In this document: positions 7,309 to 64,000 of the stretch, piece by piece
Layout of the letters: each line of letters begins with the position of its first letter
Position numbering within the stretch: position 1 is the stretch's first letter
Assembly (NCBI RefSeq): GCF_033568475.1
Contig: NC_133123.1
Span: 16,044,622 to 16,108,621 of the forward strand
Direction of reading: 5' to 3'
Origin: Henckelia pumila
Lineage: Eukaryota > Streptophyta > Magnoliopsida > Lamiales > Gesneriaceae
DNA length: 64,000 bases
Position numbers and translations under genes: made by a program
Notes under the pieces: generated by a model
Told to the model about the DNA's origin: nothing
What the model saw: the letters and a program-made list of their open reading frames with translations, nothing else
Database searches by the model: none

Positions 7309-8010
7309 AATTTCATTAAAAAAAGTAATCAGGTACCCGTTCTTGTCGGGTAAAAATCGGGTATGATTTTCCCCTGCTCAATATGTCGGATACCTAACAA
7401 AACTATCTTAACCTGACAAAACCCAACCCACTCCCACCAGATTTAAACATGTAGTATAAAATATGAGTTAAGTGGTAGTATAACATACTTAATACATGAG
7501 TTCATCTCATAAATAATAATTAATAGGTAGTGGCCACTGACGTATGACAAAAGCTTGAGTGCCACCGTCCGTCATATTTTTTTTAATCTCACACATAAAC
7601 TTTCAACAAGAATCGATTCCGCCAAAAAAACAAACCCTTCACTATTATATGACGATCAAGCTCGATATCGCTATATTTTTCTGTCTATTTCCCTTTCAGA
7701 CGATTTTTTCGACACCCAATTGCATAATTTTTTTGATCCATCAAAAGTTGTATCTGTCGAAAGGAGTTTCTTTAAGTTGAAATTGCTCGAAACTAATATC
7801 CGATAAATTATGTTAACAAAAAAAAAAAGACTAAATGAATTGACTATATATCGATCAAGAAAAATTTGTTAAAAAAATTGATTATGCAAACCAAAGCAAT
7901 ATTTTCACTTTCAAATATTGAAAAGCACCAAGTGAGTATCCACTGATGCCAAACATGAATGCCATATTTTGTTTAGATAGTCTCCACTATACTAATATTT
8001 ACTTATGACA
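7309..8010. other. Intergenic spacer, no gene
   Basis: The stretch near 7330-7430 has repeated CGGGTA-type words (CAGGTACCCG, GTCGGGTAAAAATCGGG), reminiscent of decayed hAT-type ends, but no terminal repeat pair could be defined. The rest is AT-rich without recognisable coding. Confidence 0.4.
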
Positions 8011-8423
8011 TACTCCCTCCGTCCCATATACATTGTCATCTTTGGATTTTCACACATATTAAGAAAAACTTTGAAAATATCAAATATACACATAAGTTTT
8101 CAGATTTACCCCTATTTAATGATAACAATATAAAATTAAAGTTCTCTATTTTCCACTCTCATTAGTTCCAAAACCATTTGAATTAATTCCAAATTAACTA
8201 ACTTACTCTTTCGGATTCTTAAAAATTTCAATTGCATTAGCCATTAAATTTGATTTCATGCATGAATTTTTAAATCTGCCAAATTTGAATGATCATTCGA
8301 ATTCTTAAAATTTTCAACTTAATTAGATATGCGCCTTATTTTCTCGCCAAAACTGTTTTTGAATTTTTAATGGACAATATAAATTGAAATACTAGTTTGA
8401 TAATCACAAGTTCAACAAAAAAA

Positions 8424-9890
8424 ATGAACATTGAACCACAATTTCCTTCCAATGATTTGAATGCCTCGATAGAAGAGGTTACCTCATCTGAAAATAACCA
8501 TGTTCATTCTTCACAAAATATTCCGATTGATTTGAATCAATTACCAGAAGAAGATGACATTCTTTTCAATGGCAACGTAGAGTCCAACCTTTTGAATCAA
8601 CCTCGAAAAAAGAAGAAAAATTTTAGCAACGCCGAGAAAGTTGCAATTTTTGAAATGCTTCTCATTCAACATCCAAACAATGGGAAGCTACCACGAGGAG
8701 TACTCTCGAAAGTTGCCAATGCCTTCTCTATATCTATTAGATCAGTTTCTAGAATTTGGCGGGAAGGAAAATCTACTATGAACAGAGGTGTGCCACTTTT
8801 CCCTAATAAGCTCTTGAACAGAAGACATCGGAAGAGAATTGAGATTGATTTTGAACAAATGAAGAACATCCCGTTTCGTCGTCGGACAAATATAAGATCC
8901 TTATCAAAAGCTTTGAATTTGTCAAAAACGACCGTGCATAGGAGAATAAAAGACGGAAATATTCGGCCACATTCAAATCCAGTTAAACCATGTTTGTCAG
9001 ATGACAACAGAAGGGCAAGGTTGGAGTTCTGCTTGTCAATGGTTGATCAGGAAAGTACAATTACTAGTAGACCTATTTTTATTAACATGCACGATCACAT
9101 TCATATTGATGAAAAGTGGTTTTATTTGACGAAAACATGTGAAAAGTATTATCTCCACGCAGATGAGATCGAGCCCTTCCGCACATGCAAAAGTAAAAGT
9201 TTTATTACAAATATAATGTTTTTAGCTGATGTTGCTCGTCCTCCATTTGATGAGACTACAGGCGACGAATTCAATGGGAAAATTGGAATATGGCCATTTG
9301 TGTCTCATGAACCTGCCAAGAGGAGAAGTAAAAACTGTGCAGCAGGGATTTTGGAGACGAAGCCGATCGCATCGATAACTAAAGATGTCATTCAATCATA
9401 TATCCTTCATAAGTTGTTGCTTTCAATCAAGGAAAAATGGCCACGCTCAAGTTCTAGGACCATCTTTATTCAACAAGACAATGCAAAGCCACATTTGGAT
9501 GTTAATTATGTCGAGTTTGTAGAGGAGACAAAAAAAGATGGATTCGATATTCGTTTACGTTGTCAACCTCCGAATAGTCCTGATTTGAATGTTTTGGATC
9601 TCGATTTCTTTAGAGCCATTGACTCGCTTCAACATCAAGAAGCTCCGTCAACCGTCGAAGAATTTATTATAGCAGTGGAGAGTGCTTTCAATACATTTCC
9701 TCCCAAAGATTTGAATAATGTATTTTTGTCGTTGCAATCATGTATGGTTGAGGTGATGAAGAATTTGGGTGGTAATCAGTACAAGATTCCACATATGAAC
9801 AAACAGAAACTGATTAGGATGGGAGAACTGCCAAAATGTATTGAGTTTGAATATGAAATCTTAGAAATGGCAAAGACATATCTTAATTGA
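8424..9890 (+). CDS. Mariner-like transposase (DD39D)
   Basis: An uninterrupted frame of 488 codons from the Met at 8424 (an in-frame Met at 8397 would give 497 aa) encodes a plant mariner transposase, which cuts the element at its ends and pastes it at TA. The N-terminal third has a helix-turn-helix-like region (FSNAEKVAIFEMLL, then SISIRSVSRIWREGK) for terminal repeat binding. The catalytic core shows all three acidic residues, numbered from 8397: IHIDEKWF (Asp238), IQQDNAKPH (Asp361) and SPDLNVLDLDFF (Asp401). Asp361 and Asp401 are separated by 39 residues, the DD39D signature of plant mariners. The C-terminus runs to a normal TGA. I see no frameshift or stop, so the protein could be active. 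Confidence 0.93.
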   Translation: MNIEPQFPSNDLNASIEEVTSSENNHVHSSQNIPIDLNQLPEEDDILFNGNVESNLLNQPRKKKKNFSNAEKVAIFEMLLIQHPNNGKLPRGVLSKVANAFSISIRSVSRIWREGKSTMNRGVPLFPNKLLNRRHRKRIEIDFEQMKNIPFRRRTNIRSLSKALNLSKTTVHRRIKDGNIRPHSNPVKPCLSDDNRRARLEFCLSMVDQESTITSRPIFINMHDHIHIDEKWFYLTKTCEKYYLHADEIEPFRTCKSKSFITNIMFLADVARPPFDETTGDEFNGKIGIWPFVSHEPAKRRSKNCAAGILETKPIASITKDVIQSYILHKLLLSIKEKWPRSSSRTIFIQQDNAKPHLDVNYVEFVEETKKDGFDIRLRCQPPNSPDLNVLDLDFFRAIDSLQHQEAPSTVEEFIIAVESAFNTFPPKDLNNVFLSLQSCMVEVMKNLGGNQYKIPHMNKQKLIRMGELPKCIEFEYEILEMAKTYLN

Positions 9891-27806: not shown

Positions 27807-30800
27807 TTATTGATTATTTGGTAATAGTACTTCCTTGTAAACAACATTTTTAGTATATACACCACCACGTCGCTCTAATTTCCCATCTTTTATCAATAGT
27901 TTTGTGCGATCTTGCGAAACTCCTCTCGAAAGTGCAACATATAATTGACCATGGCTGAAGACATGATTACGTAGAAAAACACCGACAGTTGGAATTGTTT
28001 GACCCTGAGCTTTGTTTATTGTGAGAGCAAAACTCAATCTTACAGGGAACTGTTTGCGAGTCAGCTCAAACGGTAATCCGGAATTATCTTCACTTTTTAA
28101 AGGCATTCGATGCAAAAAATATCTTGTACCCTTATGAGGTCCTGTTATAGTCTCTGCATCGATGAGGTTTCTCCCTAGATTGCGACATATTAACCTCATC
28201 CCGTTACACAGTCCAAGTTCGGGTGCCACATTTCTCAAAAGCATAATAGGACAACCAACTTTCAGTACTATTTTATGCGGTGGCAAACCACTTGGATTAA
28301 GAGAGTTTAAAAACTCTTCTTGGAAAAGATTGTATTTATCTTCCTCAACATTGTCCCAAGATGTGTATTCTATTTCTTCTCCAGGAAACTTTGAAATGAG
28401 GATCTCATTAATTTTATCCACATCAACATTTTTGGGAGTGATAATGGCTCTATCAACCATATAGTTTGCATCATGCACATGTTGTACCATATTTGGGAAA
28501 ATAGAATCAATCAGCTGATTCATCGATTGTTCACCTTCCCAAGGTATGATCATGGAATCCGGTATTTTTATAAAATCACCGCACACAGAATGTTGCAAGC
28601 CATCACCTATGGGCAACAGTAATTGTGAGAACTCAATATCTTGTGCAGATCTCATATTTTGCTGAAGGTGTATAATATTTACTGCATTCCAAAATGTTGA
28701 TTTTGAAATGCTTGCAGCAATTTGCTCCCGTATTGTGCCTCTCTTGACAACCGGTAACACTTGACGGAAGTCTCCACCAAAAACCATGGGTTTTCCTCCA
28801 AATGGCAATATGTTTTCCATGATATCTTGAAAAGTTTTGTTCACAGATTCAAAAGCATAACAATTGGCCATTGGAGCCTCATCCCATACTATAGCTGATG
28901 AACGTCTTATAAGATCAGCAAGATCTTTCTGCTTCTCAATTGTGCAAAGGTTTTCAGCCGTTGGTCTAAGCGGAATTTTAAGACGTGAATGAGCTGTTCT
29001 TCCACCTGGTAACAACGTTGCAGCTATTCCAGAAGTTGCAACAGCTATTACAATCTTACCATTCTTTCTTAGATGAGCTAATATAGAACGATATAAAAAC
29101 GTTTTCTCAGTTCCTCCTGGACCGTCTATGAAAAAAAGTTTTGAGTGATTGCACATAATACATCCAACAATAGAGTCAAAGGCCATCCTTTGTTCAGAAT
29201 TGAGAAATTGGATAGATCTTAAATCTTCATCTGAGATTTGAATAGAAAGCTCATCTTCAATTATCCTAGGAAGTGGCAAGTCATCGAAAAACTCTACACT
29301 TATTGGTGGCAAGTCAAAATCTTCAAACTTCTTATTGTAGTGATGTAATAATCTGCGTATTTCAAGCAACAATTTATTTGTAATGAAATAATCATTTGAT
29401 GAAGTCGATCGACCATAATCCTGAGACATGTATGGGTGAAATTCATTCCAAAGCTCTCGAACTCGTGTCGGCTGACAGAAGACCAATATGGAGACAAATA
29501 ATCTTCGTAATGATGATGGCATTTTTATAGAACATGCTTCTTGCATACATTGACGAACATAATCATCATGTTGTAGTAGTCCTCTACGTTCAGCTGCCTC
29601 TTTGAATGTTGGACACATGTTTTCATTGATGGTCATTAATTCTTCAAAAGATGTAGGACCTCTGATATGGTTTAAAAGAATACGCAGATAGAACATTTCA
29701 CCTTGAGATGGTGACACGACATATATCCTTCCTACAACCTTATTATTTCCAGTTCGTTCAACCCATTTTCTTTGATTTTGTATCCACCTATAATGTTGTG
29801 GGAATTCATGATACAAATACTTCCCTCTCAGTAATGGAGAACAATTCATTTTGAAGAACTCTGTCAGCATAGTCATTGAGTTACCACCATTTGCAAGTAT
29901 ATCACTTACATGCTCTTGTGAATTGAAACTAATTAGCTGCTGATTTGGTAAATGTATTTGCATTCTGATTACTGATGGATACATCCTACTAAGATCATAG
30001 GAATAAAGTCTCCATAATGCCTCGGGTGCACAAATCCATCTTCCATCTACATATTGTTGTATTTCATCAGAGTTCTGAACCTTACGTAATTCCAGTGCGA
30101 CTCTATCAGGTCCTTTATGAATATATTTATATATATATTTCACACATTTTATCCCACCACATACTTCAACATTGATATGGCAATCGTACTTCATCAAGAG
30201 CCACGGATTATATGGAACAACCCAACCATTATCAATCATTACTTGATCATTAGCGGTTCTCATCACCGGAGGTCCTTCACGTCTCTGATATACAGGGTAT
30301 GAATCATTTCCTCGGGTAGTGTATGGTGCAAATGGTTTGGGAAATTTCTTTTTACAAATACCATCTGACATGCATGGACTATTAGGATTGAATAATCCAC
30401 ATGGTCCATGTATCATGTGGTTGGTAACTGCTTCAAAAAGATGGGGTTCCTCAGTTCTTGATGGTATTTCAGCACGAACAACTGAATCGAATTCATCTGG
30501 AGTACGCAGCTTGTCAAAGTTTTCAAATATAACCAACATGTGAACATGAGGCAATCCTCTCTTTTGAAACTCGATGACATATGAATATGAGATAACCTTT
30601 CCTAAAACCCCTTTCTCGACAATATCTTTTTTTAAATTCCTCAAACTTTGATCTGAAAACCCTTGTTATCAAATCAGGACGGTCTTGAGGTTGTTGTCCA
30701 GGTAGTAATTGCTCTTTTATTTCATTCCAATGTGGATGGCATGTCATTGTCAGCATTAAATCTGGCTTTCCATAAGTTTGGACCAAAGTCATGACATCTT

Positions 30801-34206: not shown

Positions 34207-34387
34207 GTTGTTTTGATTGTTTCGAGCGTTTGATCAAGGCATTATCACGTCCTACATGTCACAATGATGAATGTAATTAGTACGACACAATAATGAAGAT
34301 AATAAGAACAAAATTTTGTTTGTAAGGCAACTATAAAATATTTTAGAAAGTACATAAAAAAACTGGAAAAGAATAAAATCATTAGTT

Positions 34388-37300
34388 GCAATAAAATAAT
34401 GCTGCCATGTCTCAAGCACACGAACCAAGACATAGAACTCCTTGTCGTAGGTAGGATAATTCAACGCTGCTCCACTTAGCTTTTCACTGAAGTATGCAAT
34501 TGGTCGTCCATCTTGCATCAAGACACCACCAATTCCTACACCTGACGCATCACATTCAATTTCAAAAGTATTAGAAAAATCAGGTAATACAAGTAAAGGA
34601 GCATTAATTAATTTTTGTTTAATAATATCAAAAGACTTCTCTTGCTCCTCGCCCCAATGGAATAGAACGTTCTTCTTGATCACCGCAGTCATAGGAGCCG
34701 CCAAAGTGCTGAAATCTTTTACAAATCTCCTATAGAAACTTGCAAGACCATGAAACTCCGAACTTGACCAATAGAAGTAGGCGTTGGCCAATCTCGAATT
34801 GCACTTACCTTGTTCTCATCAATTTTAACACTTTGAGCACTCACAACAAAATCAAGAAACACAAGTTCTTTTGTACAAAACACACTTTTTCAAATTAGCA
34901 TAAAAATGTTCAGCTTTTAGTGTGATTAGCACAATTTTCAAGTGTTAAACATGCTCATTCAAGTTCTTACTATTCACCAAAATATCATCAAAATACACCA
35001 CAACAAATTTTCCAATATAAGCACGCAAAACATGATTCATCAACCTCATAAAAGTGCTAGGTGCATTAGTTAACCCAAATGACATAATCAACCACTCATA
35101 CAATCCGTACTTAGTTTTAAAAGCAGTTTTTTATTCATCACCTTCTCTCATCCGAATTTGATGGTAACCACTCTTAAGATCAATTTTACTAAAGATGCTA
35201 GAACCATACAATTTATCCAACATATCATCTAGTCTAGGAATAGGATGTCTATACTTGATGGTAATATTGTTAATGGCTCTACAATCAACACACATTCTCC
35301 ATGAACCGTCTTTCTTAGGCACTAACAAAACAGGTACAGCACAAGGAGACATAGACTCACGCACAAATCCCTTGTCAAGAAGTTCACTTACCTGCCGTTG
35401 TAGCTTTTTTGTTTCCTCCGGGTTACTCCTATAAGCTGGACGATTCGGCAATGCACTTCCGGGCACAATATCAATTTGATGCTCAATTCCCCTCAAAGGT
35501 GGTAATCCTTGAGGTAAATCCTCCTGAAATAGTTCTTCAAATTCCTGCAAGAGAGAAACAAGACTGCTCGGAAGATTTCCGGCTATATCACTTGTGTTAA
35601 GGAGAATCTCCTTATAGAAAATCAATACAAGTGGAGTATGCACATGTAAAATCTCTCGCAACTCACTCTTTTGGGCCATATATATTTTTTTATCGGCCTC
35701 TTTCCTCTCATTTTTGTCTTCATCTTTTTTTCTTTCATTTTTTTTTTCTAAGGTCATCTCACTTTTTTGTTCACTCTTTTTTTCGGCCTCTTCTCTCTTT
35801 TTCTTTTTCAAATGATCCTCCAATACTTGTTTTGGAGTCATTGGCAACAACACAACAGACTCTTTTTTCATAGTAAAAGAATAACGATTCTTAAAACCAT
35901 CATGTGTCACCTTCCTATCAAATTGCCACGGTATACCCAACAAGATATGACAGGCTTGCATAGGAACAACATCACACAACACTTCATCCTCATATTTACC
36001 AATTGAGAAAGACACCACAACTCGCCTAGTCACTCTCACTTCAGAACTATCATTAAACCACTGCAATTTATATGGTTGAGGATGCTTTAAAGTAGGCAAA
36101 CTCAATTTTTCAACAAGCTCACTACTCGCGACGTTGGTACAGCTACCCCCATCAATGATGACACTACACACTTTGTTTTTCACAAAGCATCTAGTATGAA
36201 ACAAATTTTTCCTTTGATTTTCGCCCTCCTCCTTTTGTTGCACATTCAACACTCTCCTAGTCACCAACAACTCACCAACAACTGCATTACATCCCTCGTC
36301 ATCGGGATCCTCCAACACAGACATATCATCATAATTCTCCTCCTCACTCTCCGATTCAATCTCACCACCATCATTCACAATCATTATTTTTTTATTAGGA
36401 CACTGACTAGCAATATGAAAAAGACCTTGACATCTAAAGAATTTAATGTCCCTAGAACGATTATTGGGAGTTTCAGATTTACCTTGCACTTCTTGCTTTA
36501 GATGTCAAGGTCAGAACGATTATTGGGAGTTTCAGATTTACCTTGCACTCCTTTGGCGTTTTTTGCTTGGTGTCAACTTTTGGTTTGGACACCGTCTTGA
36601 CATCCTCTCGTTTGCCAACATTTGGACGCCAAGGTATAGTAGTTCCTCCACACGAGGACACTCGACCAATGACTCTCCTTTTAAGCTGTAGCTCCACTTT
36701 CATAGCTAATTGTACCATCTTCTCAAGATCCACACAATGTCGTAGCTTCACTTGGTCTTGAATATCTCTATTCAAACCACACAGAAATCGAGTCATGGTT
36801 GCCTCACTATCCTCCTCAATGTTAGCCCGAATCATAGTAATCTCCAACTCCTTGGAGTAGTCCTCTACACTCCTCGAGCCTTGCTTCAAATTCTGCAATC
36901 GCTTAAACATATCACGATAATAGTAATTAGGAACAAACCTTTTCTTCATTATTTGCTTCATATCTTCCCATGTTTCAACAGGCCTCTCACGATTTCTCCT
37001 CCTAGTTGTAACAAGCTGATCCCACCAAATTAGAGCATAATCCACAAATTCAAAAACCGCTAACTTTATTTTTTTTGAATCGCTGTAGTTGTGGCAATTA
37101 AACACCGACTCCACTCTCATCTCCCACTCCAAAAAAGCCTCTAGATCAGATTTCCCTTGAAACGATGGAATTTTCATCTTAATTTCACTAATATTCCCAT
37201 CTTCTCTACCCCATTCAGTATATCTCCCTCGCATTGCTTATCTTCTATTTCTTCCATCCTCCTGACCTCGCCTATTCCTACGCGAATTCTCACCAAAACT

Positions 37301-55843: not shown

Positions 55844-57072
55844 TGTTGGGGATCGGTAGTGTGTATAGAGGGGGGTGGTGAATACACACACTAATAACTT
55901 TACTCTTTAAAATAATAAGATTAAACAATTGTTAGTTTACTTAACCACTTTTTCTTAACTTCCTAGATGAATAAGAGCTACTAAAGTAGTGTGAAAGATG
56001 ACTCTCACTAAACTAGGTGTCAATAGTGAAAATATAATGTGATGCAGTAATGTAAATATGCACAAAGTTGTTTATGGATGTTCGGAGCTCAATCTCCTAC
56101 GTCACCCCTTCTTTCTCAAGGGAAGGATACACTAGAAAACTTTGGTTATTACAATGTCTTGTAATACACCCGATTAATTTTGGACTTATCACTGCCTAAA
56201 AAGGAACTCTTAGATTTACACTGATAAGATTTTAAGTTCTTATCAAACTTATTCAGTTGATGATGATGAATGGATGTCTAAGATTTGAAAGCTTAGAGTC
56301 TCAAATCCTTGGAGTAATCGATGTTCTTCAAAACAATGGCTTGGATTTGAGTAACCCTTGAATAGATCTCTAGGAAGATCAAATATTCTTCTGTTTGAGC
56401 GAAGGGTTAAATGAGCAATAGTGTATTGAAAACAACTTTGGGTGCTCGAATGCTTTGATAGTTTAATGATCGTCTCTTCTCTACTTCTTTTTTGTTTGGC
56501 TCTAGTATTTATATCAAAGTCTTCAACATATTTATCCCTTTGTGTCAACGGTAAGAAACCTCTTTTTGAACAGATGTATGCCAGATAATATTTCTTTTTT
56601 TGTGGAGTAGGATCTGTCCATCTTCAAAATATCTATACTTGAAGTTCTTTTAATGTTCATTCAATATGCCCTCATAATAAATGCTATTAATGGACTTTCG
56701 ATCTTTGTTAGATGGCTTCTTAAATGCTTTGTCCTTTCGCATTTAAGTTGTCTTGTCAAGAATCCGTTACTAGGTATTCGCAACTTAATGATATCGGTAG
56801 ATATCCTTAAGACATGTATTCCAGTTGACATTTATTCTGATAACTGAATTCGGTTGACGTCTGAGGATCAGCTGATATACATAGTGGAGTCGGCTGATAT
56901 CCATGAGTCCAGCTGATGTCTGTAAGCAGTCGATATCTTTCAGTCGGTCGGCTGATATGATAGAATCGGTTGATATCTTTTGATAGACTTTTTTCCTGTT
57001 ATACATATAAATGACGGCCAAACTATAACAATGATATATTGTTTTGTTATCACCAAAAATTAGGATTCAACA
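55844..57072 (-). mobile_element. LTR of a large retrotransposon derivative (3' LTR of a minus-strand element)
   Basis: The sequence runs TGTTGGGGATCGGTAGTGTG ... GGATTCAACA, with TG...CA ends and a TGTTG/CAACA inverted repeat. The AGAGGGGGGTGGTGAATAC block near the left end is a common plant LTR motif. On the minus strand a polypurine tract sits directly before the LTR start (TGTTGAATCC). The matching 5' LTR was not found before 60853, so the element is incomplete or interrupted. Confidence 0.75.
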
Positions 57073-57093
57073 ATTTTCCCCTTTTTGGTGATG
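57073..57093 (-). promoter_or_regulatory. Polypurine tract
   Basis: Minus-strand sequence CACCAAAAAGGGGAAAAT ends exactly at the LTR start, the expected place for priming plus-strand DNA synthesis. It fixes the orientation of the element. Confidence 0.75.
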
Positions 57094-57246
57094 ACAAAAC
57101 TTATGCCCCAAAAATCATAGTAAGAAATAAGATAATGAATTCATTGCGAAAATGAATTGCATTGACACATATGACTGTTACATGCAATCATTGGGAAAAG
57201 TGCAATAAAATCCTATTACACATACTAGGCTTTGTTATACTAATTG

Positions 57247-59985
57247 TTACCTCTTCTGCTGCCATTTTGTCTGTGAGACTTCACGTTTTTGTTGGTTTGT
57301 ATCACCTGATTTTCTAGGCTCTTCCCCCTTTTTGACATCACCACGGGTGAGATGAGAAATGATTTCTCCAAGTTGAGCACCTACAGTGGCTTGAAAGGAG
57401 TCAATGCGGGAGTCAACATGTGCGGTCAGGTCAACTTGAAGAACTGAAATCTTCGCAGTGGTATGCTCATTTGTGCAACAGACAGTTTGAGTCACTTGAG
57501 TTGCAACAGTCTCCATGGCTCGGAAATTTCGTTCTTTGTAGTTTTTCAATTAAGTGACATACTTAGTGATTTCAGATGAAAATTCGTTCAGTCGAGACAT
57601 GATAGCAGAGCGGGAATCAGCAATGCCAGCATCTTGTCCTTGATTTCGATTGCTGATACTTTTCATAGAAGTACGAAGATTCTCAATGATACTTTCGAGG
57701 TCATAATCAGGAGATTCCATGGAAACTAGAGATGTTGAAGTAGTCTTGGTTGCTATGTCGAAGTGGTGAGTATCGGAAATAGAAATGGTTATCGCTAGAC
57801 CATCAATTTTTGCTTGAACAGTGGTTACATCACCATCAGGTTCTGTTAAGAGTTCCTGGTCTTGTGATGGACGATCAATCATGTTGGTGAGCTGGTCAGT
57901 GGTGAATTGAGGATTGGTAGGACAAGTTTTTTCAAAAATTGTTTCTGGAGATGATTCAGCAGACGTTGTCTTGGTAAAAGTGGATGTGTGTTGAGCCACT
58001 TCAAAATCCAATAACGATTGCAAAACTTCGGAGACAGAAGTGAGTGGAATTTCAGGTAATGGTTCATCAGGGGCACTTGTATCCATATCTGTTGTTCTGA
58101 AATCGGAAGTTACAAGATAACATGCGATTTTCGAATTTTTTGATGTGGTTGCAAATGTAAAGTATGATAGCGGGGATTCATCTTGTGCGGCCATAAACTC
58201 TTGTTATTATTTTGTGAATATGAGTCCATTTTCATCAGTTTCATCATGAGATTCCATGGTGAGTAACATGGCCTTAGTCTTGGCAAGATACATATTAATG
58301 TACTCGTCGGATGGTGGATGAATGTGATGTTTGAATCTATATTCATGTAAGAAGGTGCCCGTGACATCAACCGATTGTTGAAGGCGTAGAATGACTTCAC
58401 AATCATCTTTAGCTGTTTTGCTCATTGGGTCAAAGTTTTGTTCCCTTTGAAAAATAACAGACCAAGCCAGGCTATCACGAAGTTGAACATCAACAAATTT
58501 GAACCTGGTAAGAGCTGTTTCAAGATGAGAAGTAGCTGTAAGAACAAACATTTTGTCCTCCAATCTGGCTAGATGTTCCAAATTGTTCTTTTGAAGGATT
58601 TTAGAGAATGAGATTTGTGTTCGGTAGGTGAACCACTCATTGAACTCTCGTAATCTAAATCGGACTGCTTTGAGAATGCCAGAGAGAACAATAAATGTTT
58701 CCATTTTAGCAATAGAAGATTTAGGGGGTGGAGATATAAAAACTCCTTTGCCTTTGTCCAGAGGATCTATGATAGGTTTGATACCCATACTTTGAGCAAA
58801 TGACTCGATAATTGTAAGTCCTTTGGTTTGACGTGATGAGACGGGTGCAATAGAAACGATAGTGCTGTCTATTGGAATGAGTACCGATCGTAAAGGTGAT
58901 ATGACCTGAGCAACTAACGATATCGATAGATCACTTAACGAAATAGATGCATCAACTGAAGAGGAGATTATCACAGCTGACGGTTCTGAGACTTCTATGG
59001 ATGAAGCTGTGATCTGCGAGGTTGGAGTTTTGACGATGGACAAGAGCTTTAACTTCTTGGGCTTCGATTGAAGTACTTTAGAAGTTTCCTTCTTCTTTGG
59101 AGATTGGGAAGGACTACCAAATACTTGTACCAATAGAGCATTGTCAATAGCATTTTCAACTTCATCAGAATCAATATGAACGATGCGTCTACTGGTTCTG
59201 GATCGTTTCTTGTGAAGAGGTAGTGCACTAGCAGTAGCCATTTGTTGATCAGCTCCAATTTCCTGCTTAATGAGTCGCAATTGATCAGCTGTAACTTTTT
59301 TATTTTTTAAGAACACAGGTATGGTGACTGCATTCAACCATTTTGAGACATGTAGTGGCTCAAACTCTGATGAGTCAACACCAAACACTTCAAGTATGTG
59401 ACATATTTGTAAAGCGAACCCTTCGGATTGGTTTTTGCCCCGAATCATTTCAAATAATGTGGAGTAGAGAATATATGACCAATTAAAATTCAGCTGAGAA
59501 GCAATAGATGCCATGTACTAAAGTTTTTCAAGAGTGATTTTGTCATAAGAAACTGCTTTGGCGAGGAGTGATTTAGCTACTATGTTAGCTAAGAGGTGGT
59601 AAGCTGGTTTGAGACTTTGCTTGAGTCCATTTACTTTGATGGGAGCACCATCCAGGGTGAACTTGGATGCCCAAAAGTCAGCATTGTCGTCAGGCAGATC
59701 CACGCATTTTGTCAAACCCTTGGTAGGCAACTCGAACGTTTCTCCAAAGAATGGCTGATTAAACTCAATGCGTCGGTCCTGGATAGTACAAGTGCTACTC
59801 CCATGATTGAGTTGTGCAGAGTCGAAGAATTTCTTGACCAGAGTGTAGTTAACTGTATAGCAAGATCCAAGAAACTTTCGAAGTCCTGAAGCTTCAAACA
59901 TGCAAAATATTTCAGAAATCTCCCGGTTTTCAATGGAGTAGACTTCTTCGAAGTTAATGCCCAAGCACGTCTTTTGGATTGACAT
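57247..59985 (-). pseudogene. Long lineage-specific retroelement-associated protein, 913 codons with in-frame stops
   Basis: A single minus-strand frame runs from the Met at 59985 to the stop at 57247 without a frameshift, broken only by stops at 59518, 58207/58204 and 57550. No family name can be given. Residues 1-200 form a folded block (FEASGLRKFLGS, FFGETFELPTKGL, NWSYILYSTLFEMI, FALQICHILEVFG). A basic Ser-rich linker follows (KKRSRTSRR), then a second folded block (METFIVLSGILKAVRFRLRE to HHIHPPSDEYINMYLAKTKA). The C-terminal third is Asp/Ser-rich and ends in a coiled-coil-like stretch with LTRGDVKKGEEPRK. It resembles, from memory, a large family of 'hypothetical proteins' in Gesneriaceae drafts. 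Reverse transcriptase or integrase motifs are absent. The position between an LTR and a polypurine tract marks it as retroelement cargo or a gag-like protein. Confidence 0.7.
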
Positions 59986-60277
59986 CCTTCTGTTTGACTG
60001 AAATGAGAAAATACTTTGAGAATAAGATCAATGAGCAATGCTACATGTATAATCAAATTTGTACATCAATTTGTACAACACAAAAAATTCTATACAAAAA
60101 TTTCATTTATCAAAATCTCATGATAAATTGAATGTAAAATATCGCGATATAATAGCAAAATCTCAAGATATTTTTGTTGTAAATATCGTTGTACACGATA
60201 TATGTTGTACCTCTAACATTATTCAAGATCAATAGAGATAACTCGAATAGTAATAAGGATGTTTTAGTGTTTATCAG

Positions 60278-60344
<67 letters not shown>

Positions 60345-60681
60345 CGTGTTAAATACAGGGAATACGCTTAAACTTTTGAATTTGAAATTTGCGCGCATTG
60401 AATATTGAAGATAAGCGGTCGAAATATAATATATATTATGAATATTTTAAATGACGATTGACACTCTTTTCATTGTCTGTTCGAGACTGCTATCAGTGAG
60501 ATAGAGGCGTTTGAGATAAGTCATCAAGTCCCATAATAATGAGTTGCAACTTTTGACCGGTAGATATCGAACGGTTGAGATGCAACTCGGCTGATCCTTT
60601 ATCTTCTTGATTGTCCCTATAAATATATGATCAAACGTAGTTAGAATATTCAAACACTCGTGTATAAGTTTAACAAAATAA
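59986..60681. promoter_or_regulatory. Divergent region between two opposite reading frames
   Basis: This gap separates the minus-strand frame ending at 59985 from the plus-strand ORF at 60682. It holds a (TA)n tract (60279-60342) and, on the plus strand, a TATAAATA box at 60619-60626, about 60 bp before the plus ORF. It could drive both genes but no transcription data are available. Confidence 0.4.
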
Positions 60682-60853
60682 ATGACTAGTTCAGGAGAGG
60701 ATATGCTGAAGGAATTTAATGCTTCAATAACTCAATCTCGAAAGAGAGATTTTGAAGATAGGGTTGCTGCAAAGGTTTTTGCAAAATGGGAAACTGTTGA
60801 ACGGTTGCGTCGACAACTTTCCGATGATGTACCACCAACTACTGCAGTTGAAG
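60682..60853 (+). pseudogene. Small ORF interrupted by a gypsy LTR
   Basis: From ATG at 60682 the frame reads MTSSGEDMLKEFNASITQ, then RDFEDRVAAKVFAKWE and RRQLSDDVPPTT, 57 codons before the LTR starts at 60854. The composition is charged and helical, unlike random sequence. A TATA box lies 60 bp upstream. The frame continues only a few bases into the LTR (TGTAACG), so the rest should lie beyond the retroelement to the right of the window. I do not recognise the protein. Confidence 0.45.
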
Positions 60854-62847
60854 TGTAACGCCCCGTTTTTATCTTAAATGAGTTTATTTGAGTTAATCGG
60901 AGATTGCAGAGTTCACGAGCCGACTTGATTTTGATCAAGGTCTATTTTGAAAATTTTGGAAATTTCAGGGACTAAAACGCAAATATTGAAATTGTTATAT
61001 TATCTACACTTGTAGACTTAGTCCACTCTCACCATCACCTTCCCCAACTCGTTATCCTCCATTATAGCTGCCCCCTTCTCATTCCAAGCTTCCAGATTTC
61101 TGTCCGAGCTCGATTCGGCCGTTGGAATTTATTTCTGAAGGCAGTTTAGCGATCACTGCAACGAGAACTCCGTTATACCGTAAGTATTTCTCCGATCAGA
61201 TACGTTTTGTTTTTCGGATGTTATTAGAATCGATTGAGATTCGAGTATGTTGTTCTTGACAGAGCTCTGATCGTTTATTATCTGTCGGTTTTGAAATAGA
61301 GCAACGTTCGGAATTGTTATGATTTTTGGTAGCTATTTTCGTAAAGAGGTTTTGAGATTTGTTGGAATTGCCTTGTTATTGTTGTATTAGCATTGATTCG
61401 AGTTATTATCGATATTGAACTGTTGTCTGCATTTCCGGTTTGATCATTTATATCTGTTATGCCGCCGGTTTGAGTTTTGAGGATTTTGAACCGTGTTTGA
61501 GTTGTAGAACTTTGGGCATTGGGTTTGTTCGTTGTTGTTGATCATCTTTTGTCTCCGCACAGATTCGTTTGGAGTTGTCGAGACATAAAAGCAGCAGTCG
61601 ATCGTCTAGAGTTCGACGAAGAATCGGTAAAGAGATTACCTTGAGCCGATATTGTTGTTAGGTTGTATAGTTTCTGATATAACCTTTTTATTGTAGCTTA
61701 TCCAGAGTTGGAACTACTTGCATTGAAAGGTAAAAGCAGTCATCGTTAGCGGGATAGCATACTCGGCACAGTTGGTTCTCGAGTTTTCCTTAAAATCACA
61801 TATTGCATCGATACTTGTTCTAGCATGTGGAACTTGTATTTTGCTGATTATTTGATTGTATTTTTATGGCTAAATGCCTTATGTTTTCATATGCATTCAT
61901 ATTGAGCCAGCACTATCATTTCAACGGGCAGAACATCCCTTTTGTTAGACGTTTGGGAGCTATAGTCGAGTGGCCTAGGGCGTAGTCGTTGCGCCTAGTG
62001 CTAGCATACTCATTATAGTTGCTCAAAGTCTAGAGGAGTGGGATACGTGGCACCACCTCGATTGGGAGGGTCGGTGGGTTGTTTACGTGATCTCGTCCTC
62101 GGGATCCCAAAGCAGAGCAACAACCCCTTGTTTATCAGAGTTGATATACCTGTTTTAAAGACATGCATATCTTTTGTTTTGTGTTGATTATGTTGTCTTG
62201 AAAGCATGTGGTTGACTTATTACATGTATTACTTGTTATGTTGTTTTTACTAGGAATATCTTTCTCACCGGAGTTATCCGATTGTTGCTTTGTTTTGTGT
62301 ATGTACTTGGCAACAGGTGGGGCAAGATCAAGTTAGAAGAGGCATGGCTAGCTTCGAGGGCAAGAAGTAGAAGTGAGACTCGTTTTAGAAGTCGAATCAG
62401 CATGCCAATCTAGTTTATGTTTCATAGCATGTTTAGATTCGAACTCGTCGTTTCTGTTGTATCGATCCTGCGAGTATCGTGGACTGAAGGTTGTCATTAC
62501 ATGTATTATGAACCATGTTATGTTTGAATGTCGTTTTGGTCATGTATGCATGTTGAGAATGGATCGGTTTTATATTGGATTGGTTGAGCTAATTGCTGTT
62601 TTCTTTACTCAGTTTTGGTCTCGCTCAAGCGAGCGTTTTTCTGTGTGCGAGACAGAACCCTACTCGCTCGAGCGAGGGTGCTTCCCCGCTCAAGCGAGAG
62701 TTCTCTTGGTAGGCGGGCAGAACATTGCTCGCTCGAGCGGGCGTGTCTTGCCACTCGAGCGAGGATCTTAAAAAAAAATATTCATTACTTTTAAATCTTG
62801 GATCTTGTTTGCTTATTTTATTTGATGTTTAGAACCGAGTTCTCACA
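60854..62847 (+). mobile_element. 5' LTR of the gypsy element
   Basis: Begins TGTAACGCCCCGTTTTTATC and ends GAGTTCTCACA, 1994 bp. Two landmarks recall the LTR copies at 4062-7308: the TCATATTGAGCC block (61900) and the TGTA(A/G)..CCCG start. Between about 62620 and 62765 it carries five copies of the palindromic word GCTCRAGCG (CTCGCTCGAGCGAG type). Confidence 0.85.
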
Positions 62848-62852
62848 TTAAG

Positions 62853-62866
62853 TGGTATCATAGAAT
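62853..62866 (+). promoter_or_regulatory. Primer binding site
   Basis: TGGTATCATAGAAT starts 5 bp after the LTR end. It matches the TGGTATCA core complementary to the initiator tRNA-Met 3' end used by plant gypsy elements. Confidence 0.8.
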
Positions 62867-63159
62867 TAAGATTCTTGGTTGAACTAGAGTGAGCGGGCAT
62901 GGTAGTTCGAGTCCGCATGTATTGGCTCCTCGCATGTGTTTGATATTTTTCTTTAATTGTTTAATTAATACCATGCGATCATGCTTTATTAATTAAGAAT
63001 TAATTTAATTACATGATTGTGTGATTTAAATTATAAAGCATGAACTACTTGAGATATAACTGTTTTTTGTTATCGGCGGGTATCCGGTATTCCAAGCGGT
63101 TGTAAGGGCACCGTATTGTAGCGATTGATGTATCTTGTGTCCTAACCTTTGATTATCAA

Positions 63160-63999
63160 ATGGTTCCTCGTCGAGTGATAAACAGAAACACACCGCCAGT
63201 TATTCCTGCGACTGAGCAAGCTAGCACTGAAGTTGATCAGTTGGATGCTATAGCGACGCCGATGGAAACCTTGCTGAAGAGGTTTCAGTCGTTTAATCCG
63301 CCCTTGTTGTTGGGTACAGAAAATCCAGTTGACTGTGAGAGTTGGTTGGATGAAATTGATCAGTTGTTCGATTCCATTGATTACACAGATGACCGCCAAA
63401 CTAGGTTAGTCATTCATCAGCTCCGTGGTGTTGCCAAAAACTGGTGGATCACGACCAAGAGATCCATGGAGAACAGAGGTACAGTTGTCAATTGGTCTCT
63501 TTTCAAAACTGAGTTTTATAAGCGGTTTCTCCTTGTTTCGTACCGGAAGTACAAGGGAGCAGAGTTTGCCAATCTGAGGCAAGGGAATCTGAACATCGAG
63601 GAGTACGTAGCCAAGTTTGACAGCTTGTTGCGTTTTGCCCCGCACATTGCCGACAGTGAAGAAGCCAAAGCCGATCAGTTTATCAACGACTTGAATCTCG
63701 ACATCTTCACGTTGGTGAACACTGCTAGGCCAGATAACTTTGCGGATGCCATGAATCATGCAAAGGGAGCGAAAGAAGGCTTGTGGAGGCAGAGAGGTAA
63801 TCAGATGGTGTCTCAGCAGCAGAGGCAGTTTCAGAACCAACCATCTCAACATCAGAATCAGCCACCTCAGTTTCAGAACCAACAACAGAGGTATGAAGGT
63901 GTAAACAGTGGGGGAAACATAAGGGATCAGTACAAAGCAAGAGGGAAACAGTTCAAGAGGCAAGGGAACAGTTCTTCTAGTTCCAGTGGTTCCAAGTAG
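63160..63999 (+). CDS. Gypsy gag protein, ended by a stop before the zinc knuckle
   Basis: A 279-aa frame from the ATG at 63160 (MVPRRVINRNTPPVIP) has the plant gypsy gag core: PVDCESWLDEIDQLFDSIDY, then VIHQLRGVAKNWWITTKR and LRQGNLNIEEYVAKFDSLLR, followed by a Gln/Asn-rich linker (FQNQPSQHQNQPPQFQNQ) and a Ser-rich end. In complete elements this is followed by a CCHC zinc knuckle and pol in the same frame. Here TAG at 63997-63999 ends it at SSSSGSK. A single change from a Gln codon (CAG) would explain it; sequence beyond 64000 is needed to confirm. Confidence 0.9.
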   Translation: MVPRRVINRNTPPVIPATEQASTEVDQLDAIATPMETLLKRFQSFNPPLLLGTENPVDCESWLDEIDQLFDSIDYTDDRQTRLVIHQLRGVAKNWWITTKRSMENRGTVVNWSLFKTEFYKRFLLVSYRKYKGAEFANLRQGNLNIEEYVAKFDSLLRFAPHIADSEEAKADQFINDLNLDIFTLVNTARPDNFADAMNHAKGAKEGLWRQRGNQMVSQQQRQFQNQPSQHQNQPPQFQNQQQRYEGVNSGGNIRDQYKARGKQFKRQGNSSSSSSGSK

Positions 64000-64000
64000 T

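Follow-up and report, generated by a model that had tools for sequence, protein, structure and literature searches.

The question raised by this locus is what kind of gene is represented by a long reading frame, interrupted by stop codons, on the minus strand (59985-57247) of a 64,000-nucleotide (nt) stretch of the Henckelia pumila genome, here called the window (C4:16044622-16108621). We read the frame, with a probability of about 0.85, as the 3' sense accessory gene (envelope-like, hereafter env-like; eORF-3'F) of a SIRE-lineage (Sirevirus) Ty1/copia retrotransposon family with ordinary gag, protease (PR), integrase (IN), reverse transcriptase (RT) and RNase H (RH). The window shows the 3' end of one old copy, with the env-like frame, the polypurine tract (PPT) and the 3' long terminal repeat (LTR). 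The assignment to SIRE was made from the junction, the LTR end, the primer site and the gag-pol order, which look like those of this lineage. Relatives of the element also carry short open reading frames (ORFs) antisense to gag-pol, here called as1, as2 and as3. The genome searched was the 884.7-Mb assembly that holds the window, and 14 relatives (A-N) were fetched as separate upstream and downstream stretches. Coordinates are collected in Table 1.

The env-like frame, its decay and its family

The frame consists of 912 codons and a terminal stop, with exactly four internal stops. The other five frames over the same interval contain 33-82 stops, and random codons of equal base composition would be expected to contain 53.5, the probability of four or fewer being ~2e-18; the env-like frame is therefore a gene remnant. 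A plus-strand reading of the interval was ruled out by 48 stops. Neutral decay simulated on the frame gave 3.9 stops (5-95%: 1-7) at a divergence d of 0.043, which is half the LTR divergence of the relatives, and 2.7 stops at d = 0.03, so the four stops seen need no selection on the window copy and fit an accumulation after its insertion that is compatible with neutral decay.

An earlier sequence-only reading had described one frame with four stops and no indel. The frame and its stops stand, but the absence of indels holds only in the sense that none breaks the frame, as relatives carry ~75 nt extra near codon 385, in frame, and a blastp alignment of the window protein with an intact relative has 50 gaps over 883 columns. 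Two of its further observations proved correct: Pfam finds no RT, integrase or protease motif in the frame, and a PPT and an LTR of about 1,229 bp lie directly downstream. Identity to the window protein, averaged over 13-14 copies, is 0.71-0.81 at residues 1-300, 0.50-0.65 at 301-450, 0.73-0.79 at 451-550, 0.32 at 701-750 and 0.72-0.78 at 751-900, a profile that fits a protein of conserved blocks and variable linkers; the sequence-only reading had proposed two folded blocks, a long linker and a tail resembling a coiled coil.

A DNA search with the frame gave 72 matches listed (40 scored of 549 candidates). In a protein search with residues 1-155, all 150 scored sequences, the best 150 of 1,999 first-look candidates, matched at 69-100% identity. 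Open frames reach 862 residues among the scored protein matches, and one fetched relative, starting at the same ATG, stays open for 850 codons. The frame is thus not unique to the locus, and the proposal that it belongs to a hugely expanded protein-coding frame of a retroelement is borne out in its own genome.

The ratio of nonsynonymous to synonymous divergence (dN/dS) of the env-like gene has a median of 0.36 over 105 pairs of 15 copies, on the side of conservation (below 1) that the sequence-only reading had proposed to look for. The corresponding medians are 0.27 and 0.41 for two parts of gag, 0.27 for PR, 0.37 for IN, 0.26 for RT and 0.20 for RH, all of them among-copy values that decayed copies push up. 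Between window-type copies and a second subfamily, dN/dS is 0.12 both for the middle block (15 copies) and for the tail (14 copies), compared with 0.06 in RH and 0.04 in RT (7 copies each); for the N-terminus, dS between subfamilies is saturated and the ratio unusable. Among the 15 pairs formed by six intact N-termini, the nine whose dS exceeds 0.5 have dN/dS of 0.06-0.09. These ratios show purifying selection on the predicted env-like protein before the copies decayed.

Protein features, gag-pol and lineage signals

No gag family and no envelope family was found above the cut-off in Pfam for the env-like frame. The weak match to PF20167 (Transposase_32, 'Putative plant transposon protein') scores 29.3 and 27.6 bits in two open relatives, and a sub-threshold match to Baculo_PEP_C (E 0.083) in the open-relative scan is not evidence. 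Kyte-Doolittle means over 19 residues peak at 1.55 for the window protein and at 1.39 for an intact relative, under the usual transmembrane level of 1.6, and no transmembrane segment was found by hydropathy alone. With these maxima and no Pfam envelope family above the cut-off, a true envelope, that is, a membrane glycoprotein for cell-to-cell or horizontal spread, is improbable. Because no stretch reaches transmembrane-like hydropathy, the env-like protein might rather work intracellularly, on particles or at their nuclear step, and not as a membrane-fusing envelope, a role that we put forward tentatively and at somewhat less than even confidence. A structure model of a 614-residue stretch of an intact relative (14 natural pieces aligned) had a mean predicted local distance difference test score (pLDDT) of 34.5 and no usable fold, and viral contigs contained no relative of the env-like protein or of as2. 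The protein would be made from a spliced LTR transcript by way of the acceptor-like CAG just before its ATG, which is present in 9 of 14 window-type copies and 6/6 of the second subfamily, one further copy having TAG. Ty3 elements are known to produce spliced env-like messages (PMC7264820; PMC2829016); for the present frame, spliced expression stands at even odds.

The remainder of the element is that of a copia retrotransposon. In relatives D and L the order is gag, PR, IN, RT and RH, the Ty1/copia arrangement with integrase before RT, and Pfam identifies Retrotran_gag_2 (PF14223, E 2e-17), Pol_BBD, gag_pre-integrs, rve, SH3_retrovirus and RVT_2 in the family parts; the RNase H piece matches no RNase H model in Pfam. 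RT and RH of the family lie ~2.5-5.3 kb upstream of the env-like frame in six of the 14 relatives (A, B, D, G, K and L), and gag with a 5' LTR, whole or partial, is present in three (C, D and L), relative C having gag, PR and IN with no RT or RH match. No pol of the family was found in the stretches read for E, F, H, I, J, M and N; in three of these (F, H and N) there is pol that belongs to other elements. For the window copy itself, PR, IN, RT and RH are found on the same strand at C4:16127389-16130940, ~23 kb upstream of the frame, and would have been pushed off to this distance by nested insertions. One of these is a Ty3/gypsy element, the first 1,647 nt of which recur at 96.2% in the fetched locus L018; it splits as1 and helps part the env-like frame from its pol. 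A second is a copia element of another lineage (28-33% protein identity to the family) at C4 ~16.1205-16.1232 Mb.

The sequence-only reading had seen here a gene carried instead of pol, and hence a new class of large non-autonomous element or a novel gag. A non-autonomous element of this kind would be mobilised in trans. Taken by itself, the window has no pol between the frame and the element that follows, and not every relative shows RT and RH in its fetched stretch. However, the window copy has PR to RH in line on the same strand past the nested insertions, which refutes the idea for this copy; six relatives have RT and RH, and the antisense spacer that separates pol from the frame is likewise shared. 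As the relatives' gag-pol leads to the same result, "instead of pol" falls, a non-autonomous class is very improbable, and the matter is settled in favor of an accessory gene of a known lineage with pol present. The notion of a new gag, suggested for a long coiled or helical protein near an LTR by position alone, is equally far-fetched, as the elements already hold a separate copia-type gag 5' of pol in C, D and L and the frame matches no gag family. Relatives do have ordinary gag-pol, which partly fulfils what the sequence-only reading had named as a refutation, but the region in question has the character of a translated frame, not of a spacer left untranslated.

The junction provides the signals of the lineage. 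Sireviruses are described as having a PPT octamer 10 nt before the LTR, an AT/TG attachment site, an inverted repeat at the junction and a poly-C LTR end (PMC2829016). In our copies, AT precedes the LTR in 13/13 and AT/TG is whole in 8/13, the arms of the inverted repeat are visible in the listed junctions, and a poly-C/CCGATCCC-type end can be seen in the copies whose LTR match extends that far, which F, H and K do not. An LTR of the same type as that of the window is also found upstream of gag in relatives C and L, and in part in D, and the primer binding site (PBS) TGGTATCAGAG follows 3/3 5' LTRs. The two LTRs of a copy differ by a Kimura two-parameter distance of 0.089 in C, 0.083 in L and 0.062 in D (over 655 nt only). 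Target-site duplications were looked for at the copies' junctions and none was established. A TCGGCTGA-type repeat occurs in the LTR and once at 60587, and was compared, by repeat presence alone, with the palindromic CGG-CCG repeat boxes that Sireviruses have in the LTR and upstream of ENV (PMC2829016). The upstream PPT copy of the window overlaps the coding 3' end of the env-like frame and so doubles as codons. Directly behind the 3' LTR of relative C stands a piece of the family's LTR in reverse orientation (86% identity; L014 3573-4217).

Comparison with described systems places the env-like frame among the eORF-3'F, or env-like, genes of SIRE elements, which share a Ty1/copia gag-pol and a sense extra frame between pol and the 3' LTR (PMC6317226, PMC2829016). 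The likeness to Sirevirus, drawn by layout and signals, extends to the PPT, inverted repeat and attachment site, the poly-C LTR end, the PBS and a high divergence between families (PMC6317226, PMC2829016). In contrast to described Sireviruses, the present elements have fewer strict PPT octamers and carry antisense ORFs in the spacer between pol and env (PMC2829016, PMC6317226). Of SIRE elements, 74% were reported to carry an eORF-3'F, and these frames fall into 19 groups that resemble one another little (Neumann 2019, PMC6317226), so a diverged member such as this one is to be expected. PF20167 has been described in a sense 3' accessory frame, aORF(+), of a sunflower Athila element (PMC11728184). 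As there, the frame is a 3' accessory one in sense orientation, and our weak match spans almost all of the domain; unlike there, the score is below the curated cut-off and the element is Ty1/copia, whereas Athila is a Ty3 element. No literature pairing 'Putative plant transposon protein' with a retrotransposon was otherwise found.

Several observations weigh against this identification or parts of it. The exact octamer AGGGGGAR stands at the terminal place in only 4 of 13 copies (one of them at -11) and is changed in the others. A single upstream AGGGGGAR within 460 nt is present in 6/13 copies, so that strict multiple PPTs are weak, where the Sirevirus linker is described with several (about four) PPT copies (PMC2829016). 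The fetched upstream stretches of eight of the 14 relatives do not show family RT and RH, and the sequence read upstream of the window copy showed neither its gag nor its 5' LTR. The d of the decay simulation was taken from the LTR pairs of other copies. PF20167 remains below the curated cut-off of 45 bits in all three proteins. The acceptor CAG is missing in 5/14 window-type copies. The pattern that picks out basic clusters in the window protein finds none in the intact relative, so there is no conserved nuclear signal. Finally, the six pairs of intact N-termini with dS <0.1 give dN/dS of 0.35-1.08.

Antisense ORFs between pol and the env-like gene

The relatives contain two or three tandem ORFs of ~120-150 amino acids, antisense to gag-pol, between pol and the env-like gene. 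Counting the window copy, as1 is present in 12/15 copies, as2 in 9/15 and as3 in 8/15, and the ORFs are homologous to each other by hhalign (as1-as2 probability 98.1%, as2-as3 98.4%). In six tested regions the antisense frame has no stop in five and one in the sixth, with 4-14 stops in the other frames. Divergence at codon positions 1/2/3 in DNA alignments is 0.131/0.150/0.207 for as1, 0.109/0.081/0.127 for as2 and 0.095/0.136/0.168 for as3, and the same measure gives 0.210/0.212/0.175 and 0.118/0.128/0.121 for two spacers. The third position is the most divergent in 8/12 copies of as1, 7/9 of as2 and 5/7 of as3, compared with 5/6 for RNase H as a yardstick. Median dN/dS among copies is 0.45 for as1, 0.39 for as2 and 0.44 for as3, and for as3 the value between subfamilies is 0.15 (7 copies), with dS close to saturation. 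In the second subfamily, as3 is found at 54% identity and as1 has a frame-broken homologue, made up of two pieces that overlap (hmmsearch E 1.9e-13 and 3.3e-10); as2 was not found in the 4 kb of this subfamily. In relative D, as1 is duplicated in tandem (L015 ~7979-8737). Splicing of as1 and as2 into one message was considered; by eye no donor site seemed kept, and they were treated as separate ORFs.

A TATAAAT box lies 52-96 nt upstream of the antisense ORFs in 26 of the 30 rows compared. For as1, the exact TATAAATA is found 52-71 nt upstream of the start in 11/12 rows, the twelfth being the second copy of the duplicated as1; for as2, TATAAAT is 53-63 nt upstream in 8/9 copies, and for as3 it is 67-96 nt upstream of the first aligned residue in 7/9. 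TATAAAT occurs 148 times in 598,002 nt (all loci, both strands), or ~1 per 4 kb, so that the spacing of the boxes is far from chance, though the related copies are not independent. Across the genome, 73 of 150 scored as3 matches (of 685 candidates) have an env-like match, from the 150 scored, no more than 15 kb away, against ~0.8 expected by chance. Without exception these 73 lie upstream of the env-like match on the opposite strand, at a distance of 1.60-1.83 kb in 62 cases. A smaller set for as2 gave 37/68 within 30 kb of an env-like match, all 37 on the opposite strand. These linkage counts are among the matches listed, where unlinked rows are uninformative. Because of the codon-level constraint, the spacing of the TATA boxes and the genome-wide link to the env-like gene, the antisense ORFs are very likely real genes under selection.

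The protein encoded by as2 is predicted to form four helices (pLDDT 87; predicted template modeling score, pTM, 0.77). Its predicted fold has no match with E <0.4 in the PDB (best 0.62 among 215 matches at E of 10 or less) or in BFVD (best 0.46 among 256), and its sequence has no match in Pfam and none among PDB sequences. Alongside gag, pol and the 3' sense accessory gene, the two or three antisense genes could be single-exon paralogues, each with its own TATA promoter, independent of the LTR, and each encoding a small four-helix protein without known relatives that would aid the element against host silencing or in regulation, making the family resemble a small complex retrovirus; judged from sequence and predicted structure, we give this proposal as much credence as doubt. 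The promoter-like region could alternatively serve the env-like frame, not or not only the antisense ORFs, as a bidirectional internal promoter. The repeat boxes upstream of ENV in Sireviruses have been proposed as internal promoters (PMC2829016), and a copy of TCGGCTGA, which also occurs in the LTR, stands at 60587 in the window. This alternative is nonetheless unlikely, as the conserved TATAAATA faces the antisense ORF with its spacing to that ATG kept, and the env-like ATG is >600 nt off on the other side.

Antisense genes in this position, termed aORF-3R, are known from Ty3 elements, namely maize Grande (gene23), RIRE2, Retand and PvRetro13 (PMC7264820; PMC11963269). As in these, as1-as3 are antisense, coding and located between pol and the 3' LTR (PMC7264820). 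An own promoter has been demonstrated for Grande gene23, whereas for the present ORFs it is proposed from TATA boxes (PMC7264820). The comparison is one of layout: in contrast to the Ty3 genes, the present ORFs belong to a Ty1/copia element, are small, stand in a tandem of two or three that are homologous to one another, and each have a box of their own. Among the open-licence papers listed in searches on antisense ORFs in Sirevirus and Copia elements and on accessory genes with own promoters, no such report was seen for a Ty1/copia element. Since Neumann 2019 counted only frames of >=250 codons (PMC6317226), antisense ORFs of ~120-150 amino acids would have been missed there.

Neighboring elements and meaning for the family

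Table 1. Positions of the features discussed (window coordinates except in the last row, which refers to the fetched locus L013)
Feature	Position	Strand	Remarks
Probable env-like (eORF-3'F) accessory frame of a SIRE-type Ty1/copia element	57247..59985	minus	four stops; family in own genome
Internal stops of env-like frame	59518-59520; 58204-58209 (two adjacent); 57550-57552	minus	
Weak PF20167 match	59374..59853 (residues 45-204)	minus	E 7e-4, 19.9 bits
Possible 3' splice acceptor, T-rich stretch ending CAG	59998..60010	minus	12 nt upstream of ATG; by inspection only
Upstream PPT copy, AGGGGGAR type	57322..57329	minus	inside 3' end of env-like frame
Terminal PPT	57075..57082	minus	followed by AT (57073-57074), then TG of the LTR
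Inverted repeat around PPT/LTR junction	57041..57100		arms ~57082-57100 and 57041-57059; compared with PMC2829016
3' LTR, ~1,229 bp	55844..57072	minus	begins TGTTG, ends with poly-C/CCGATCCCCAACA signal
TATAAATA box	60618..60625	plus	64 nt upstream of as1 ATG at 60682
Start of as1 in window	60682..60853	plus	cut by Ty3/gypsy insertion; continues at L018 5778-6131
Nested Ty3/gypsy element	60854..64000	plus	LTR from 60854; gag 63106-63999 (Retrotrans_gag); runs off window
Antisense ORFs in L013	8336-8758, 7410-7838, 6710-7081	minus	tandem, mutually homologous, own TATAAAT boxes

Three other elements were seen in the window. An open 500-codon frame at 8388-9890 on the plus strand, with HTH_Tnp_Tc3_2 just below the cut-off and DUF7769, is a Tc1/mariner-like transposase without stops. 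On the minus strand, 27807-30665 is an open frame of 952 codons with a PIF1 helicase and a Helitron_like_N end, that is, a long open Helitron replicase-helicase, and 34252-37237 contains pieces of another retroelement, with RVT_1 in 35134-36504 and more open frames on both sides. At the level of the assembly, four contigs of 183-234 Mb make up most of its 885 Mb, which may mean four chromosome pairs.

The env-like frame alone belongs to a known kind of gene, and the comparison suggests that the antisense ORFs add a layout that is new for Ty1/copia. The env-like protein has been under strong selection, so it does something for the element. Tandem antisense genes with promoter-like boxes would extend to Ty1/copia the layout described for the Ty3 elements Grande, RIRE2 and Retand, and would provide a large natural set for testing the function of antisense retrotransposon genes. 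The antisense boxes also offer an alternative reading of the promoter-like region upstream of Sirevirus ENV.
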